Origin: Candidatus Gastranaerophilales bacterium | Lineage (GTDB): Bacteria > Cyanobacteriota > Vampirovibrionia > Gastranaerophilales > Gastranaerophilaceae | NCBI GenBank assembly: GCA_947589425.1 | Contig: CANQAV010000001.1 | Span: 1 to 64,000 of the forward strand | Length of the DNA: 64,000 bases | Direction: 5' to 3' | Shown here: positions 12,673 to 21,242 of the stretch, in pieces | How the letters are laid out: the number at the start of each line of letters is the position of its first letter | Numbering within the stretch: position 1 is the stretch's first letter | Position numbers and translations under genes: made by a program | The notes under the pieces: generated by a model | Told to the model about the DNA's origin: nothing | Database searches by the model: none | What the model saw: only the letters and a program-made list of their open reading frames with translations

Positions 12673-12846
12673 ATGAAATTAGAAATCACTGAAAACTTTG
12701 ATAAAAAACTCGCAGAACTTTATTCATCTAAAGTAACTGTTAACTTAGAAGCAAAATCAACACTTAACCCTAATGAATTTTGGAATTCAATGGAATTAAT
12801 CGCAGTTAACCACAAAGCAATGATTAACTTCAGAATAGCAAGATAA
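12673..12846 (+). CDS. small unknown protein (57 residues)
   Basis: An ATG at 12673 follows AAGAG and opens a 57-residue frame. It starts MKLEITENFDKKLAELYSS and ends in MINFRIAR, with helical charged character and no membrane segment. An AT-rich stretch upstream (TTGAAA at 12610, TATACT at 12630) could hold a promoter, although the 14-bp spacing is short. A terminator follows at 12892. A single gene with its own ribosome site and terminator between murE and a convergent gene is plausible; no family is recognised. Confidence 0.5.
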   Translation: MKLEITENFDKKLAELYSSKVTVNLEAKSTLNPNEFWNSMELIAVNHKAMINFRIAR

Positions 12847-12891: not shown

Positions 12892-12919
12892 CACCCTTCG
12901 TTTTAAACGAAGGGTTTTG
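12892..12919. terminator. bidirectional terminator between convergent genes
   Basis: CCCTTCGTTT pairs with AAACGAAGGG and is followed by TTTT on the plus strand. It separates the small plus-strand ORF from the minus-strand RND-like gene. Confidence 0.75.
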
Positions 12920-12921
12920 AA

Positions 12922-14514
12922 TTATTTGTAATATAAAACCGCATAATATTTTGTACCTTTTCTTGTAATTAAATCATAAACATCTGAAGTTTTTTTTGAG
13001 ACCAATGACGACAAAGAAACCAAATTTTTAATTGTTTTAGAATAAACAAAAGCATTTTCGGAAGGATTTAAATTTTTCAAGATAACGGGAATTTTTGATG
13101 AATTATCGAAAAAATAACCGCATAAAATTCCGTCATTTTGTGCTCTTAATGCGTTTAAAACATCTTCTTTTTCTAAGTTATAATCAATAAGGGAATTTTC
13201 GTCAATTGTGTATGAAATTGCATTTGTTTTACCGAGATATTGAGTAAAAAAAATGTTTTCGGGGTTTTGTGATTTAAATTTCGAAACTTTGTCATAAAGA
13301 TTATCTATGTCAATATCCTCAAAAGTAATTTTCTTTATGTCCGAGCTTACAAAAAAATTGTTGTCGTTGAGAATTTTTATAACTTTTCTTTTGCTTGAAC
13401 GAGGTGAAAAAATTGTAAGTTTATTTTTTTGGCATTCAAAAAATTCATCTTTAAATGAAATATTCGGCAAATCTGACCCTATAAAAAACAGCGGATTTTT
13501 AATTTTATTTTGCCGTAATATTTTAGCGATTTTGCTATATTCAAAAAATGTGCTAATAATGCTTGATGTGCCGTCAAAATAGACCTCAACCGGAGAATAG
13601 TTCTTTGTATATATGATATCAACCCTTACAAAATCAGGAAAAGTACTATTTAATTTCGCACACAATACTTTCAGCTTAAAATAGAGCAAAAAATCGGGCA
13701 GAAACTTCCTTGGAGAAACAAATAACGCCTGCGCCTTTGAAAGGTTATATGCAATATAATTTTTTTGCGGGACTCTTGCGGTATAATTCACCTTGAATAC
13801 ATTATTTAAATAATAAGAAAAATCAGAATTTATATAAGGTATTCTTATAGATTTAATATTTCTCTCGCTTTCAAAAGAAGTGTTTAAAAGCATCTGCAAA
13901 TATGCTTGTTTACCGTAATCAAAAGATGCATTTTGAAAAATATTATTTTTATTTAAAATATTTTTTATATCGGTTAAAGACAAAGAATATTTCAATAAGT
14001 CCGAATTTAAAAAATATACATAAACGCATTTTTCCGGCATTGAAGCTTCAAAAACTTTTGAAGAAATTTTTTCATCCAAAATTTTGTCAATCGTTTTATC
14101 CGAATAGTCTTTAAGTAAATCATAATCGGCAATATCGGAATATATAACTAACGCAAAAGGATATGTTTTTTTATATTCTTCATCAATTTCAAATTCAAGG
14201 TCATAGGGCAATATTTCTTTTTTGCTTATGATTGCAGATTTAATTCTTGAAATGACGGAATTTTTGTTTAAAACAAAAGGCTTTATTTTGCAATATATTG
14301 AACAATATTCATCATGAGAAAAAATATAAAAATCGCTCAGTTCTTCAATTTGCGCAAGCAAATCTTTAAGGTTTTCGGCAATTGTTAAATCAATTTTTTG
14401 AGCAGCAACCCCGTATGATTTAACCGTAATTTTAATATCAAAAGAGCGGTTGAAAATAAAAAAAAGCACAGCGGCAAAAAAAAGCAAAAGAATAAGTAAA
14501 TACAATTTTTTCAT
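12922..14514 (-). CDS. RND-like periplasmic porter protein lacking TM2-TM12
   Basis: A 530-residue protein with one N-terminal transmembrane helix (about 4-21) and then only periplasmic sequence. Residues ~25-315 follow the order of the first periplasmic loop of AcrB-type pumps: ITVKSYGVAAQKIDLTIAEN resembles PN1, and SLSLTDIKNILNKNN (178-192) resembles the docking-domain helix. Residues ~320-530 resemble the second loop, with NLEKEDVLNALRAQN at 446-460 as the matching second docking helix. The proton-relay helices (TM4, TM10) and all others are absent, yet the frame is intact. It is translationally coupled (ATGA) to an adaptor lipoprotein. RND relationship is inferred from motif order, so transport activity cannot be assumed; it may be a scaffold or sensor. 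Confidence 0.6.
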   Translation of the reverse strand: MKKLYLLILLLFFAAVLFFIFNRSFDIKITVKSYGVAAQKIDLTIAENLKDLLAQIEELSDFYIFSHDEYCSIYCKIKPFVLNKNSVISRIKSAIISKKEILPYDLEFEIDEEYKKTYPFALVIYSDIADYDLLKDYSDKTIDKILDEKISSKVFEASMPEKCVYVYFLNSDLLKYSLSLTDIKNILNKNNIFQNASFDYGKQAYLQMLLNTSFESERNIKSIRIPYINSDFSYYLNNVFKVNYTARVPQKNYIAYNLSKAQALFVSPRKFLPDFLLYFKLKVLCAKLNSTFPDFVRVDIIYTKNYSPVEVYFDGTSSIISTFFEYSKIAKILRQNKIKNPLFFIGSDLPNISFKDEFFECQKNKLTIFSPRSSKRKVIKILNDNNFFVSSDIKKITFEDIDIDNLYDKVSKFKSQNPENIFFTQYLGKTNAISYTIDENSLIDYNLEKEDVLNALRAQNDGILCGYFFDNSSKIPVILKNLNPSENAFVYSKTIKNLVSLSSLVSKKTSDVYDLITRKGTKYYAVLYYK

Positions 14515-15560
14515 AACTTGATTTTGTTTTTACCCCTCAAAGTGTTTAAATTCTTAGATACTACCAAATCATTTTCGCCGACACCGTTTATAATTTGAAT
14601 TTTTTCGTTTATGATTTCGCCCGTCTCAACTTTTGTTTTTACGACTTGAGCAGCATTGTCTTTTGTTTGCAATATTTTATATACATATTTTTCCTCGCCT
14701 TCCGAGTCAACCGCACTTAAAGGCAAATACAAAATACCCGATTTTAAACTGTTTAATTCTACATCAACCGACATACCGTCTTTCAGGTTAGGATAAACGG
14801 AATCCAAATTAATCTTAACAAGATATCCTCCGGAATTAATGCTTGTATTTGATATATGAGAAATATGACCCTGAAATTTTGAATTGTTATATATTACGCT
14901 TACTTGGTCATTGATTTTTAAATCATTAACATAGCTGCTATCCACCATTATTTCAGCTTGTGTTTTGTTTGTTCCGTTGATAACAAGGATTACATCGCCA
15001 ATTTTAGCATATGACCCGACTTCCGCTACTTTTGATGCAATGTAACCGTCATAAGGAGCAACTATTTCATTGTAGCTCAGTTCTTTGTTAAAATAGTTCA
15101 ACTTTTCTTTTTGTATTTTAATCTGCTGTTCATTTGTTTTATATTCAAAATATGCCTGCTCCCAATCGTTATCGGATATACCGCCTTCCTTATGAAGTAT
15201 ATCCATTCTTTTAAAATAATTTTTTGATTTATTGTATTGAATAACAGCATTTTCAAGATTTGCTTTTTGTTCGTCTTTTTGAATTTTATAGAGTGTATTA
15301 TCAAGCCGTGCCAAAACTTGCCCCTTTTTAACAAAGTCGCCTTTTGAAAAAGGAAGGTATGTAATTTTGCCTTCGGTCTGAAAACTTAAATTTGAGATTA
15401 GCTGAGATTTAATCATGCCGTGAAAAATCAATTTTGACTCATCAGGCAAATACATAGGTTTTATATATTCAATATTATAGTTTTCTCTTGAATTATAATT
15501 TTCGCAAGCACTTACAAAAAAGAGTAAAATTAGTAAAATGACAATTTTACATTTATTCAT
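14511..15560 (-). CDS. periplasmic adaptor lipoprotein (RND membrane-fusion protein family)
   Basis: A 349-residue protein with a lipoprotein signal (MNKCKIVILLILLFFVSAC, lipobox VSAC). It has the HlyD/AcrA order: a barrel-sandwich lipoyl half (GKITYLPFSKGDFVKKGQVLARLD), an alpha-helical hairpin (about 95-150), the second lipoyl half (IVAPYDGYIASKVAEVGSYAKIGD), then beta-barrel and membrane-proximal domains. Such adaptors link an inner-membrane pump to an outer-membrane channel. Its start precedes the RND-like gene, whose ATG overlaps its stop, so the two proteins are made together. No TolC-like gene is in the window. Confidence 0.88.
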   Translation of the reverse strand: MNKCKIVILLILLFFVSACENYNSRENYNIEYIKPMYLPDESKLIFHGMIKSQLISNLSFQTEGKITYLPFSKGDFVKKGQVLARLDNTLYKIQKDEQKANLENAVIQYNKSKNYFKRMDILHKEGGISDNDWEQAYFEYKTNEQQIKIQKEKLNYFNKELSYNEIVAPYDGYIASKVAEVGSYAKIGDVILVINGTNKTQAEIMVDSSYVNDLKINDQVSVIYNNSKFQGHISHISNTSINSGGYLVKINLDSVYPNLKDGMSVDVELNSLKSGILYLPLSAVDSEGEEKYVYKILQTKDNAAQVVKTKVETGEIINEKIQIINGVGENDLVVSKNLNTLRGKNKIKL

Positions 15561-15628: not shown

Positions 15629-16588
15629 TTAAAACTTTTCAAGAGTCTGTATTAAAAAAAGACCGTTAACGCTCGTTGGAGAAGAAGTTGAATTTTTTGA
15701 AACCAATTTCACTTCTTTTGTAGCACAGTTATAGCTCCAAGTGCCCAAAAAAATCTTTTGGTTTTCATTTGAAACAGCGTATGCAAGAGCCAAAACCAAA
15801 TCATCATCCTCAGAGCTGAAACCCAACGGCGAAATATCATATCGGTATTTTTCCAGTTGGATGTTTTTCATATCAAGATAATATTTTTTAATTGCATCAT
15901 CCAATTTATCAAGTTTAACAACCGTTTTGTTATCATTACCGTAGAAACATACATACAAATATGTCTTATAAATTCCCTCGTACATAGAGCCTTTTTTCTC
16001 TTTTACAAGAAGTTTTTTGCCGTCCTTGGACCAATCTACAAGAGTAAGAGAGTCAAACAAATTCGGATAATTTTCTTTAGTACCGGCACTTATAACAGGC
16101 TGTCTTTGAATGGCGCCATGGTCATATTCTATTAATCTTCTTTGTTTTACCTTGCCGGTATCAAGCTTTTCAATAAAAAATTCCGAAGAAAGCTGATTGA
16201 TGTCAGGTGAATAATAATAGTGCGAATATGCGGCATTTTTGCAATCATTATCCGCAACAAGAAACGAGGGAACAAATAAACTCTTTTTAATACCCGAAAG
16301 ATTAGTTTCACGGCTTCCTGCGGGATAATTATATCTTTTAAACTGATAAACGGGTTTTGGAACATGGACATGCCTGTTTCCTTTTTTAATTTCGTATTTT
16401 CTTTTTTCACGCATATCAAGCGGAATGTTTTGAGCTTCGTTTAACCAATCATCAACCGTTTCAACCATTTTTTCATTACGGGGTTTATTTTTTTTCTTCA
16501 AAAAACCAATGTTAATCTTTGCGGCAGCAAAGCCTGAAAAATTCAGAACAAAAACGACAGCAACCAAAATTTCCGCAATTTTTTTCAT
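15629..16588 (-). CDS. secreted protein of unknown function
   Basis: A 319-residue protein with a signal peptide (MKKIAEILVAVVFVLNFSGFA). The mature part starts with a Lys-rich segment. A middle stretch reads VDWSKDGKKLLVKEKKGS, which recalls the blade motif of TolB/WD40-like propellers (W-S-x-D-G-K-x-L), but too few blades are visible to call the fold. It lies four bases downstream of the NarL-type regulator gene on the same strand, so it is probably the last gene of that signalling operon and could be its periplasmic input or output. No enzyme motif is seen. Confidence 0.65.
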   Translation of the reverse strand: MKKIAEILVAVVFVLNFSGFAAAKINIGFLKKKNKPRNEKMVETVDDWLNEAQNIPLDMREKRKYEIKKGNRHVHVPKPVYQFKRYNYPAGSRETNLSGIKKSLFVPSFLVADNDCKNAAYSHYYYSPDINQLSSEFFIEKLDTGKVKQRRLIEYDHGAIQRQPVISAGTKENYPNLFDSLTLVDWSKDGKKLLVKEKKGSMYEGIYKTYLYVCFYGNDNKTVVKLDKLDDAIKKYYLDMKNIQLEKYRYDISPLGFSSEDDDLVLALAYAVSNENQKIFLGTWSYNCATKEVKLVSKNSTSSPTSVNGLFLIQTLEKF

Positions 16589-16591
16589 TAT

Positions 16592-17266
16592 TCAGACCAA
16601 TCCTTCTTTTAAGGCAACAATTGCAGCTTTTGTTCTGTCCGAAAGATATAATTTTTGAAGAATATTGTGTACGTGAGCCTTTGTTGTCGATATTGAAACA
16701 ACAAGCTTTTGAGAAATTTCCTGATTTGAAAGCCCGTCAACTATCAAAGAAAGCACTTCAAGTTCTTTTTTTGTAAGACCGTATTTTTTATTTGCCAGCT
16801 GGCTTTTTTCGTTTGCAGAGGTTATGTCGTCACCATGCTGAATATTTGATAATACAACTCTTGCAATTTGAGAATCAATCCAGGCGCAATGTTGTGCTAC
16901 GGATTCAATTGCATTTATTAAATTTTGCGAACCAGACCCTTTCATAATATATCCGTCCGCACCTGCTTTAAAGGAAGCAAAAATATCGTCATTGTTGTCC
17001 CTTGATGTAAACATTAAAACAGCCGAGCCGAGTTTTAATTCTTCTTTAATTTTTCTTGTTGCCGTAATTCCGTCCATTTTGGGAAGTCCGATATCCATTA
17101 AAATAACATCCGGATTATATTTTTGAGCCATTGCAACGCCTTCTTGTCCGTCCACGGCTTGAGCAATAAGTTTCATACCCTCGGTTGACTCGATTTTCAT
17201 AGCCAAACCCATTCTCGTAAATTCATGGTCTTCAACTAAAAGTATTGATATATCTTTTTTTGTCAT
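16592..17266 (-). CDS. NarL/FixJ-family response regulator
   Basis: A 224-residue regulator. The start at 17266 (MTKKDIS) follows AAGGTGATTTT and overlaps the kinase stop by ATGA. The receiver domain (1-~120) has the acidic pair VEDHE, phosphoacceptor Asp58 in ILMDIGLPKMDG, Thr in MFTSRD and Lys in the GYIMKG loop. A ~40-residue linker leads to a LuxR-type helix-turn-helix near the C-terminus (LTKKELEVLSLIVDGLSNQEIS, then VSTTKAHVHNILQKL). It binds DNA when phosphorylated, most likely by the kinase encoded just upstream. Confidence 0.93.
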   Translation of the reverse strand: MTKKDISILLVEDHEFTRMGLAMKIESTEGMKLIAQAVDGQEGVAMAQKYNPDVILMDIGLPKMDGITATRKIKEELKLGSAVLMFTSRDNNDDIFASFKAGADGYIMKGSGSQNLINAIESVAQHCAWIDSQIARVVLSNIQHGDDITSANEKSQLANKKYGLTKKELEVLSLIVDGLSNQEISQKLVVSISTTKAHVHNILQKLYLSDRTKAAIVALKEGLV

Positions 17267-18807
17267 AAAATCACCTTGCAATCGCTTGTCGAATTATTTA
17301 ACTCAAAAGTAAACGTAGAGCCTTTATTTAGTTGTGAATTAACATAGATTTTGCCGTTATGTGCTTCAATTATCTGTCTTGACAAATATAATCCCAATCC
17401 TGTTGAGCTTGAACGTTTTTGATTTGTTCCCTGGCAAAATCTGGTAAACAGTTTTTCGCAGTCTTCACTACTTAAACCGATACCGTCATCTTTAACATTG
17501 ATTTTGGTAATTTTATCGTTCTTATTAATGCTTATTTGTATATTTGAACTGTTTTGAGAATGTTTAATTGCATTACCTACAAGATTTGCTACAACACGCC
17601 TGATTTCATTTCTGTCCGCATCAACATAGGCTTCTTTGCAATCAGATAATATTTTAAAATCCATGTTTGCTTTTTTTGCCAATGGTGAAAGCTCTTGTGC
17701 ACATTCATTGACCAAATCAACAATATCAAACTTTGTTTTACACAGATATGTTTTCCCGGCTTCATATCTGTATACTTCTAAAAGCGTATTAACAAGCCCC
17801 AGCATATCTTCCGAGCTTTTTTTCATAGCCGCAAACAAATTAAATTGCTTTTGATTAACCTCGCCCAAAGAGCCGTCTAAAACAAATTCCAAACCCGAAA
17901 TTGATGCAAGCAAAGGCGTCCTTAAATCATGTGTCAGTGTCGCAATGAAATCGTCTCTGAGTCGTTCTGTTTCTTTCTGATAAGTCACGTCACGAATAAC
18001 CGCAACATAAAAATTATTAATTTCATCTTTTATGGGAGCAATACTGATTTCAACAGGAATTTTTTCATCTTTTTCATAATTTATCAATATGTAATTTCTT
18101 AAAAATGTATTCTTAGATTTAAGTTCATTTATTGAGAATTGTTTTTTTTCACTCACTATGAGTTCAAATAAATTCTTTTTTATAAGCTGCTCTTTTTTTT
18201 GCCCGAACAATGTCAATGATGCATTATTAACGTCAATTATATGCAATTCGCTGTCAAAAAGGACAATTCCGTCCGCACAATTTGAAATAACCGCATTAAG
18301 TTTTGAATTTGCTCTTGATAATTCAAGAGTCCTTTCTTCAACAATATTTTCAAGGTTTTTCGAATAGTCTTCAAGTTTCTTGTTTGCATCTTCCAATTCT
18401 TTAACTTTAATATTCAATTCTTTTTTTAACGCCCGTTGAATAAGAGCATTTTTTACGCTAATGATTAAATTTGTGTTGTCCCACGGCTTTTCAATATATT
18501 TAAATATGCCAATTTCATTTATTGCCCTGATTGCGTTTTCTTTATCGGCATAACCCGTTAAAAGAATTGTCGAAACGTCGTTTTGAAGTTTTTTTGCAGA
18601 GTTTAAAAAATCAATACCGTTCATCTCCGGCATAATAAAATCACTGATAATCAAGTCAACTTCACGGGTTTTTAGATACTCAAGGGCATCTTTTGGAGCA
18701 TTAAACAAAACAACATTAGAAAAACCTTCCAGCCCTAAAAGCATAGAAAGTGTTTTGGTGACCATTTGTTCGTCGTCAACTATAATAATATGTCCCGACT
18801 TATCCAT
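17263..18807 (-). CDS. REC-PAS-histidine kinase
   Basis: A 514-residue soluble kinase. The order is unusual: a receiver domain comes first (1-~125, phosphoacceptor Asp56, KPW loop), then a coiled coil (~125-170), a PAS domain (~168-280), HisKA with HDLRTP (phospho-His293) and an HATPase domain with N (LVGNAIKHS), G1 (VKDDGIGLS) and G2 (STGLGLYLSRQI) boxes. No membrane segment is present, so it senses a cytoplasmic signal or is itself the target of another kinase through its receiver. It is coupled to the NarL-type regulator by a 4-bp overlap. This N-terminal REC layout resembles phytochrome-type or cyanobacterial hybrid relay kinases. Confidence 0.92.
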   Translation of the reverse strand: MDKSGHIIIVDDEQMVTKTLSMLLGLEGFSNVVLFNAPKDALEYLKTREVDLIISDFIMPEMNGIDFLNSAKKLQNDVSTILLTGYADKENAIRAINEIGIFKYIEKPWDNTNLIISVKNALIQRALKKELNIKVKELEDANKKLEDYSKNLENIVEERTLELSRANSKLNAVISNCADGIVLFDSELHIIDVNNASLTLFGQKKEQLIKKNLFELIVSEKKQFSINELKSKNTFLRNYILINYEKDEKIPVEISIAPIKDEINNFYVAVIRDVTYQKETERLRDDFIATLTHDLRTPLLASISGLEFVLDGSLGEVNQKQFNLFAAMKKSSEDMLGLVNTLLEVYRYEAGKTYLCKTKFDIVDLVNECAQELSPLAKKANMDFKILSDCKEAYVDADRNEIRRVVANLVGNAIKHSQNSSNIQISINKNDKITKINVKDDGIGLSSEDCEKLFTRFCQGTNQKRSSSTGLGLYLSRQIIEAHNGKIYVNSQLNKGSTFTFELNNSTSDCKVIL

Positions 18808-18959: not shown

Positions 18960-21242
18960 ATGAAACTTGCTTTCAATAATACAAATAATCCACGATACAA
19001 GCATAACTACAAAACTATGCCTAACGGTTTTGCATCCTCAAAAAACAACACACAACCGAGTTTTAGGGGATTGCCTTTTGCAAAAAAGGAAGTATTTTTC
19101 CCCGATATTGATAAAATTGCAAAAAAAATTGATAACATTCTTGGAGACAACTACTTCAGCACAACCGCACAAAAGGCGGGAATTGAACTAAAAAGTTCGG
19201 GAGTTAAGATAATAAAACCCGGCGTAATGCATGATATCAAATCTACTGTCAGATATCCTTTTTTGGATATGCCGCTTGATATAACAAATTGGGTATTAAC
19301 GCTTCTTAAAAAGACACCTCTTAAAGATTTTGCACAAAAAACTTTAAATAACCCGAGATTATTAAAGAGAGCACAACAGTACGAGACTGAAAAAAGCTAC
19401 AAACTGGTCCTCGATATGCTGAACGGTTTTTGCAACGGCAATCCCCCCTCAGACATTAACAAATGTGCTGAAAGTTTTAAAGAAAAGGTTACCCAGGGCG
19501 TAGGAAAAATTACAAAAAAATACAATGCACGTGATGAGAGAACGCTGAACAGAATTGCAACATCAACCGTGAGTGCGCTGTATTCGGCAAGAGATTTTTA
19601 CAATATTTCAATGCTCGAAAAGAACGACAAAGACGAAGCAAAAAAATCAGAAAAAGCACGTAAAAAACAAGAACTCACCAGAATGGCGATAAGCGGTGCT
19701 TTAACATTCTTCACTCTTGGTGCATTAGACAAAGTAACAAAAACAAATGTTGTAATGAATTCATCCGTTATAGCCCTAAGCGCTCTTATTGCAGAAGTTG
19801 TTTCGAGGGTGGCTAACGGAACTCCGCTTCATCCTCTGAGCCCAAAAGAAGCGGAAAAAATAGCTAAAAAAAGAAAAGAAGGGAAAAGCAAATTACAACA
19901 ACAGAACACAAAGACAAATACGCAGCCTTCTTTTAAAAGTGCACAATTTTCGGATGAAAACAAACTCTACTCACAATTCGGCGATAAAAACGGTAAAATA
20001 ACCGCGCTAAATATGCTGAATAAAACACAAAAAACAGCTTCAAAACATAAAAAGAAACAAATAAATTATAAAAAACTTTTAACCGCATGCTTTACTCTGG
20101 CAAGTGCGGCATATTTGACCAAACGAGTTATAGACGGCGAATATATAGCAAAATTTAAAGTAAGAAACATACTTAAAGCCGATAAATATGATGCACACGC
20201 CCTAAAAGGCACAACTCCTTTTGATTCGGACATTGAAAATAAAATTATAAATGCTATTAAACAAATGCTTAAAAGTAAGAAAAAAAGCGATATTTTAGGC
20301 AGATTTAAAACAAATGTTACAACCAAAGAAAAATCAGTTTATGTACAAGATATTATAAATTCATACGAAAAGCTAAAAAGTACACAAGAAGGCAAAACCA
20401 TTGCCAATCTTCTGGATGAGTATATAAAACACGCACAAGAAATGCTCAACAAAGGTATGTCAAAGGTTGAAATAAGAACAAATAAATTTATTGTACCCGG
20501 AATATATGACGGCTTTACAAAAATATTCTCAACCCTATACAGAATTTTCTCTATTCCCGGCGCAATGATTAACAAATGCATGAACAATCTGTTTTTTGAT
20601 AAAAATAAAGATATTTTTGAAAAATACACCAGACAAGTAAGCAATGAAAAAATAGAAAGATATAAAAAAGAATTAGCCGGAATATACGAAATTACAAAAA
20701 AATACGGCAGCAATAAAGCAAAGTTAATTGAACAGCTTAAAAGTCAAACAAGAAATTTTGAAACAAGTCCCGAAACATCCGAACTTGCAAACATTTCACG
20801 TACAATGGTAACGGCAATTACGACATATTTCTTTGTAAATGACTATACAAACAAAGTTTTAATCGAATCCGAAGGTAAAAATATAGACGGAGCAAGAGAA
20901 GAAAGAAACGAAAGAATTGCTCACAAACTGTCTAACTTTGTTATAAACGGTACATTAATGAATTTGTTTAATTCCGTATTCAAAACACAGCTCAATAACA
21001 GCCTGATTGAAGCAACTCTGATTGCAACGGGTACCGAAATGACGAATGAATTTATGGTAAGAAAATCAATCTGCCAGCCCGTTAAACGCATGAAATCACG
21101 TGAAGATATAATTAAATATGAACACGACAAAATGTCGCAGGGCGGAATAGTCGGCTTATATCACAGATTATTTGCTAAAATTACGGGTAAAAAAGCACTA
21201 ACGCAAAAAACCGACACAAATAAAGCACAAAAAAACAACTAA
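18960..21242 (+). CDS. large unknown protein with two membrane-like segments
   Basis: A 760-residue Lys-rich protein of no recognised family. A low-complexity N-terminus contains PSFRG (33-37); the same NTQPSF string recurs at 320-325 before the middle hydrophobic segment. Possible membrane helices lie near 245-275 (AISGALTFFTLGALDK, VIALSALIAEVV), at about 375-395 (LLTACFTLASAAYLTKR) and perhaps around 535-550. Long charged helices separate them. It is alone between divergent signalling genes and the phosphohexomutase; the start has a weak AAGGC site. The repeated motif suggests two related halves. Function unknown. Confidence 0.75.
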   Translation: MKLAFNNTNNPRYKHNYKTMPNGFASSKNNTQPSFRGLPFAKKEVFFPDIDKIAKKIDNILGDNYFSTTAQKAGIELKSSGVKIIKPGVMHDIKSTVRYPFLDMPLDITNWVLTLLKKTPLKDFAQKTLNNPRLLKRAQQYETEKSYKLVLDMLNGFCNGNPPSDINKCAESFKEKVTQGVGKITKKYNARDERTLNRIATSTVSALYSARDFYNISMLEKNDKDEAKKSEKARKKQELTRMAISGALTFFTLGALDKVTKTNVVMNSSVIALSALIAEVVSRVANGTPLHPLSPKEAEKIAKKRKEGKSKLQQQNTKTNTQPSFKSAQFSDENKLYSQFGDKNGKITALNMLNKTQKTASKHKKKQINYKKLLTACFTLASAAYLTKRVIDGEYIAKFKVRNILKADKYDAHALKGTTPFDSDIENKIINAIKQMLKSKKKSDILGRFKTNVTTKEKSVYVQDIINSYEKLKSTQEGKTIANLLDEYIKHAQEMLNKGMSKVEIRTNKFIVPGIYDGFTKIFSTLYRIFSIPGAMINKCMNNLFFDKNKDIFEKYTRQVSNEKIERYKKELAGIYEITKKYGSNKAKLIEQLKSQTRNFETSPETSELANISRTMVTAITTYFFVNDYTNKVLIESEGKNIDGAREERNERIAHKLSNFVINGTLMNLFNSVFKTQLNNSLIEATLIATGTEMTNEFMVRKSICQPVKRMKSREDIIKYEHDKMSQGGIVGLYHRLFAKITGKKALTQKTDTNKAQKNN

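Follow-up and report, generated by a model that had tools for sequence, protein, structure and literature searches.

In the common view of RND pumps, the periplasmic part has a use only if it is driven from the membrane. In AcrB, the residues of the proton relay sit in TM4, TM10 and TM11 (PMC8277102), and split or reduced RND proteins such as SecD/SecF illustrate that the RND architecture can be divided or shortened while the transmembrane bundle is kept (PMC8277102). The engineered protein AcrBper is a soluble fusion of both periplasmic loops of E. coli AcrB, which is trimeric in crystals and binds drugs, and of which 5EN5 is the apo structure of the complex with a DARPin (PMC8617272).

The protein described here, tRND, represents the reverse of the SecD/SecF type of reduction, since the bundle has been lost and the periplasmic part retained. 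It is encoded in a metagenome-assembled genome (MAG) of Candidatus Gastranaerophilales, which are uncultured bacteria of the gut, within a stretch of 64,000 nucleotides (positions 1 to 64,000 of contig CANQAV010000001.1) that was analysed as a whole and is called the window below. As in AcrBper (PDB 5EN5, 5ENS, 7B8R), loop 1 is joined directly to loop 2 without TM2-TM7, in the same fold; AcrBper, however, is man-made, free of an anchor and complete in loop 2, whereas tRND is a natural protein that has retained TM1 but lost the end of PC2. By profile, the nearest named family is that of the MexK/TriC-type permeases (RND_permease_2, NF033617), which also adjoin an adaptor gene but have about 1,000 aa, 12 helices and a proton relay. 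A named family of RND proteins without the membrane helices was not found in the open-licence literature, in line with the original prediction, which knew of none with this layout. Thus, tRND can be considered a natural counterpart of AcrBper in which the motor was discarded and the docking half was kept together with the adaptor, a loss that probably happened more than once. It allows the parts of a tripartite pump that serve assembly to be told apart by experiment from those that serve energy supply, and it implies that finding an RND gene paired with an adaptor gene is not always a sign of active efflux.

Layout and predicted fold of tRND

The reduced RND protein tRND, consisting of TM1 and both periplasmic loops, has 530 aa and is encoded on the minus strand (12922..14514) by an open frame, the ATG of which shares four nucleotides with the stop of the adaptor gene (14511-14514), just as had been read from the sequence at first. 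It contains one hydrophobic helix (residues 4-22), and a single helix was also found in 15/15 representatives of the genus and in 4/4 tested copies of a second short lineage (genus g41). The helix belongs to the N-terminal membrane anchor (residues 1-22; 14449..14514, minus strand), which aligns with TM1 of RND proteins. In a profile-profile alignment to the full-length protein of locus L094, residues 2-300 correspond to 10-316 (TM1 and loop 1) and residues 309-528 to 555-805 (loop 2), which indicates that TM2-TM7 were cleanly excised and that TM8-TM12 are absent, as originally proposed. Loop 1 (PN1, PN2 and DN; subdomain borders approximate, in AcrB numbering) comprises residues 26-300 (13615..14439), the junction in place of TM2-TM7 residues 300-309 (13588..13617), and loop 2 (PC1, the first half of PC2 and DC) residues 309-528 (12931..13590), all on the minus strand. 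The expectation that both AcrB-type periplasmic loops would be present was correct for loop 1 and for most of loop 2, but the latter is incomplete: the C-terminus of tRND lies at about AcrB residue 830, and some 40 final residues of the loop, i.e. the second half of PC2 and the last strand of PC1, are gone. A palindromic terminator-like hairpin that can be read from both sides lies 3' of the stop codon (12893..12915).

Because the proton-relay helices TM4, TM10 and TM11 are missing, proton-driven transport is impossible and tRND cannot be a proton-driven pump, which agrees with the early suggestion that normal pump action could not be expected. With one helix instead of the 12 expected of an RND transporter, and without a proton relay, it is RND-derived by descent, yet not an RND transporter in the functional sense. 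A separate gene for the membrane part was not found when the PF00873 matches in the genome were checked; besides tRND, such matches are limited to a single full-length pump and a 482-aa frame matched in part (profile positions 327-482), which is taken to be SecD/F-like.

The AlphaFold2 model of tRND, made with 25 orthologues, has a pLDDT of 86.4 and a pTM of 0.80. The top PDB matches in Foldseek are 5ENO, 7B8R, 5EN5 and relatives (best E 5e-30, TM scores 0.75/0.69), and after this AcrBper series the next matches are whole RND pumps. VIA-align yielded Z scores of 27.2 with OqxB, 26.6 with MdtB, 26.5 with TriC and 26.3 with AcrB over about 500 residues. The porter (PN1, PN2, PC1, PC2) and docking (DN, DC) fold is present in residues 20-530 of the model, with the exception of the second half of PC2, so that the proposed AcrB-type fold was confirmed by fold search. 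The two docking-helix repeats noticed earlier at residues 178-192 and 446-460 coincide in the model with a helix of DN (residues 180-190; 13945..13977, minus strand) and one of DC (residues 449-459; 13138..13170, minus strand).

Among solved sequences, MexK and TriC are nearest to the profile of the tRND family. The window's own protein scores below the cut-offs of NCBIfam RND_permease_2 (NF033617; 38.5 bits, cut-off 1250) and Pfam ACR_tran (22.3 bits, cut-off 28), but 21/25 of the orthologues match ACR_tran independently (best E 8.5e-18), which excludes a chance likeness.

Conservation and origin of the short form

The short layout is shared by orthologues in 25/28 species of the window's genus (g1), with open frames of 408-558 aa. 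At all 25 loci tRND is preceded by the identical four genes in an unchanged five-gene order, and the adaptor is its constant neighbour, a point that the first reading had proposed to check. The three species without tRND, two with a genome completeness of 91-92% and one of 77%, also lack its adaptor. Since a joint profile of the 25 short forms proved too diverse as a query for locus searches, the conserved adaptor was used as bait. In AcrB numbering, with approximate borders, occupancy of DN is at least 93% and of DC at least 96% in 25/25 copies, while PC2 is mostly gone in 5/25 copies and PC1 in 1/25.

Full-length homologues, which according to the original prediction would mark the gene as a deletion remnant, do exist: orthologues of 989-1023 aa with membrane bundles are found in the sister genera g37, g41 and g45 (L133-L142, L094). 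These complete pumps differ from tRND in possessing the membrane bundle and resemble it in the orthologous adaptor encoded upstream. Their existence, together with the fast evolution of tRND (25-36% identity within the genus), could suggest a functionless, decaying remnant of a deleted pump. However, the frames are open in 25 separately assembled species genomes, the predicted fold is confident, the pairing with the adaptor is strict, and the same layout recurs in another genus (g41). NG86 dN/dS values of close tRND pairs are 0.07-0.19, resembling those of the adaptor, although most dS values are near saturation; one pair of the second lineage has a dS of 0.22 and a dN/dS of 0.10. Neither disrupted frames in relatives nor relaxed selection, as expected of a pseudogene, was found. 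With the short form fixed within the genus and purifying selection acting on it, decay is very improbable and, judged from these sequence comparisons, tRND is a derived protein rather than a decaying gene. We have hardly any doubt about this architecture and evolutionary status, that is, about a derived and selectively maintained RND protein without TM2-TM12.

Short forms are restricted to g1 and g41 among 386 sampled genomes of the phylum; in addition, one genome of this sample (G288) has a 407-aa frame with a partial match. In g37, the orthologous adaptor and a full-length RND gene (1008-1023 aa) lie about 3.7 kb from a kinase-regulator-propeller block like that of the window's genus, on the same strand, and therefore the most likely ancestor of the short form in g1 is a full-length pump at such a place, later joined to the block. 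In g41 the pair is located elsewhere, in several genomes next to a gene whose product resembles a SulP transporter. Of the nine species of g41, three have a full-length RND protein, and so apparently does G255, where the first 52 residues match the full-length form up to the contig end. It is short in 5/9 species, four of which were recognised by profile and one (506 aa) was missed. In the short forms of g41, TM2-TM7 are likewise missing, but the C-terminal end lies closer to TM8 than in the window's genus.

The adaptor tree nests the g41 short forms inside g41 and requires three state changes, and monophyly of the short forms is rejected on it (AU p 0.002 and 0.003). The pump-domain tree, on the other hand, joins both short lineages (support 90/99), by which a single origin followed by transfer or adaptor exchange is possible. 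Since the pump-domain tree has very long branches and uneven composition, the question was judged by the adaptor tree and gene order, and two or more independent motor losses are the more probable reading. The short form of G241 is possibly a third independent loss; the AU test on a third origin gave p 0.18. The G241 protein itself (506 aa; L162:7318-8838, G241:C1) is an RND-derived one-helix protein encoded beside an adaptor and too divergent for the genus profile.

Adaptor, channels and proposed function

The adaptor lipoprotein (349 aa; 14511..15560, minus strand) matches TIGR01730 (RND_mfp) with 191.4 bits, well above the cut-off of 94.9, and has a lipobox (VSAC) at position 19, with Cys19. 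Its residues 118-129 (15174..15209, minus strand) form the RLS motif (RxxxLxxxxxxS) of the TolC-binding hairpin tip, a motif of which the definition and role in TolC binding were described earlier (PMC3391258). All adaptors of the genus (25/25) and of the g41 short lineage (5/5) carry the motif without change.

A gene for an outer-membrane factor was not found in the tRND operon, which on its own does not encode a complete tripartite system. Since a shared, unlinked TolC is common among RND systems, a missing channel gene in the operon is a weak point. The window's genome has seven OEP/TolC-type genes, all outside the tRND operon, and for at least two of the seven, the 3.5-kb segments that were read contain neither a pump nor an adaptor gene.

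The retained DN and DC, the invariant RLS motif, the joint loss of tRND and adaptor, and the seven OEP genes point to a motor-less docking platform for the adaptor and a TolC-type channel, presumably trimeric and serving as passive conduit or tether, a reading to which we would give an even chance. It finds a precedent in AcrBper, which is trimeric and binds drugs without any membrane part. tRND retains TM1 as its anchor, PN1 and PN2 as one half of the porter, and DN and DC as docking crown, and three copies of it would form a ring like the periplasmic part of AcrB. This ring would recruit the adaptor lipoprotein, the RLS hairpin tips of which could engage one of the TolC-type channels of the cell. 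In this way, the inner-membrane surface would be linked to the outer membrane by a conduit or tether without energy supply, through which periplasmic compounds might exit down their gradient, by which an outer-membrane channel might be held, or which might lend its adaptor and channel to another transporter. As a point against this reading, the adaptor-binding face or the conduit may be impaired by the loss of the PC2 end and, in some species, of the greater part of PC1/PC2.

Since a full-length RND pump (HAE1) is present in 28/28 genomes of the genus, a role as partner of that pump has to be considered, and mixing of tRND with it is the main rival of the platform reading. MdtB and MdtC are known to mix in trimers, and tRND retains the domains that form the trimer. 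It could thus enter full-length RND trimers, or sit on an ABC or MFS exporter, and tune the transporter or provide it with a new docking crown. Yet it is its own adaptor, rather than the full-length pump, that accompanies tRND; in the genome of the window, this pump is encoded on a different contig together with an adaptor and channel of its own and is only remotely related. We consider such a partner or regulator unlikely.

Returning to the docking platform, a wider interpretation is conceivable, which we put forward tentatively: RND-derived motor-less docking rings, together with an adaptor lipoprotein of their own and a TolC-type channel in shared use, may constitute a new envelope machine, a passive conduit or tether that evolved at least twice from proton-driven pumps within the Gastranaerophilales and is still shrinking towards the docking crown.

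In a comparison of two g41 genomes (loci L143 and L144), the short RND genes are 95% identical (dS 0.22) and the adjoining adaptors 75% (dS 0.63); this difference suggests recombination at the border of the two genes.

Operon context and neighbouring genes

The tRND gene is the last of a five-gene block on the minus strand, which starts with a REC-PAS-HisKA-HATPase histidine kinase (17263..18807) and continues with a NarL-type response regulator (16592..17281), an exported protein of 319 aa (15629..16588) and the adaptor. The exported protein, a partial beta-propeller present in the same operon at 25/25 loci of the genus, has no match in Pfam or NCBIfam, and its model resembles blades of S9 peptidases and TolB, weakly (TM score 0.35 at best). 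Promoter-like sites did not exceed the chance level. As the operon begins with a two-component system and closes with the tRND-adaptor pair, the pair is probably expressed on the command of that system.

The constant linkage to the kinase-regulator pair and the exported propeller protein in the genus could also mean that the loops of tRND act as a periplasmic capture or sensing module, binding a ligand and passing it, or a signal, to the adaptor or the two-component system; the binding of drugs by AcrBper without a transmembrane part is compatible with this (PMC8617272). Direct sensing is made less likely by the kinase, in which a domain search matched no membrane-spanning sensor domain, and by the order-wide distribution of the block: the propeller gene occurs in 136/146 genomes of the order, and kinase, regulator and propeller genes are contiguous at 12/12 loci, mostly without the pump pair. 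Capture of a substrate is disfavoured by the fact that erosion in tRND affects PC1 and PC2, which form the substrate cleft of AcrB. A capture or sensing module therefore seems quite unlikely, and of the three functions originally offered, the passive conduit, here extended to a platform, fits best, whereas capture and a direct sensor are weakened.

Two further genes flank the operon. An ORF of 57 aa (MKLEITENFDKK...; 12673-12843, plus strand) is convergent to tRND and was seen 3' of it at most genus loci read. A second copy in the same genome (G000:C2:73672-73842) encodes an identical protein, and both copies lie in a shared stretch of 293 bp with 97.6% identity, within which several contigs of relatives stop, as expected of a repeat. 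On the other side, a gene for a 760-aa protein (18960-21242, plus strand) without a significant match in Pfam or NCBIfam is divergent to the tRND operon at the genus loci, and a distant relative of this protein is encoded downstream of the full-length pump in L094.
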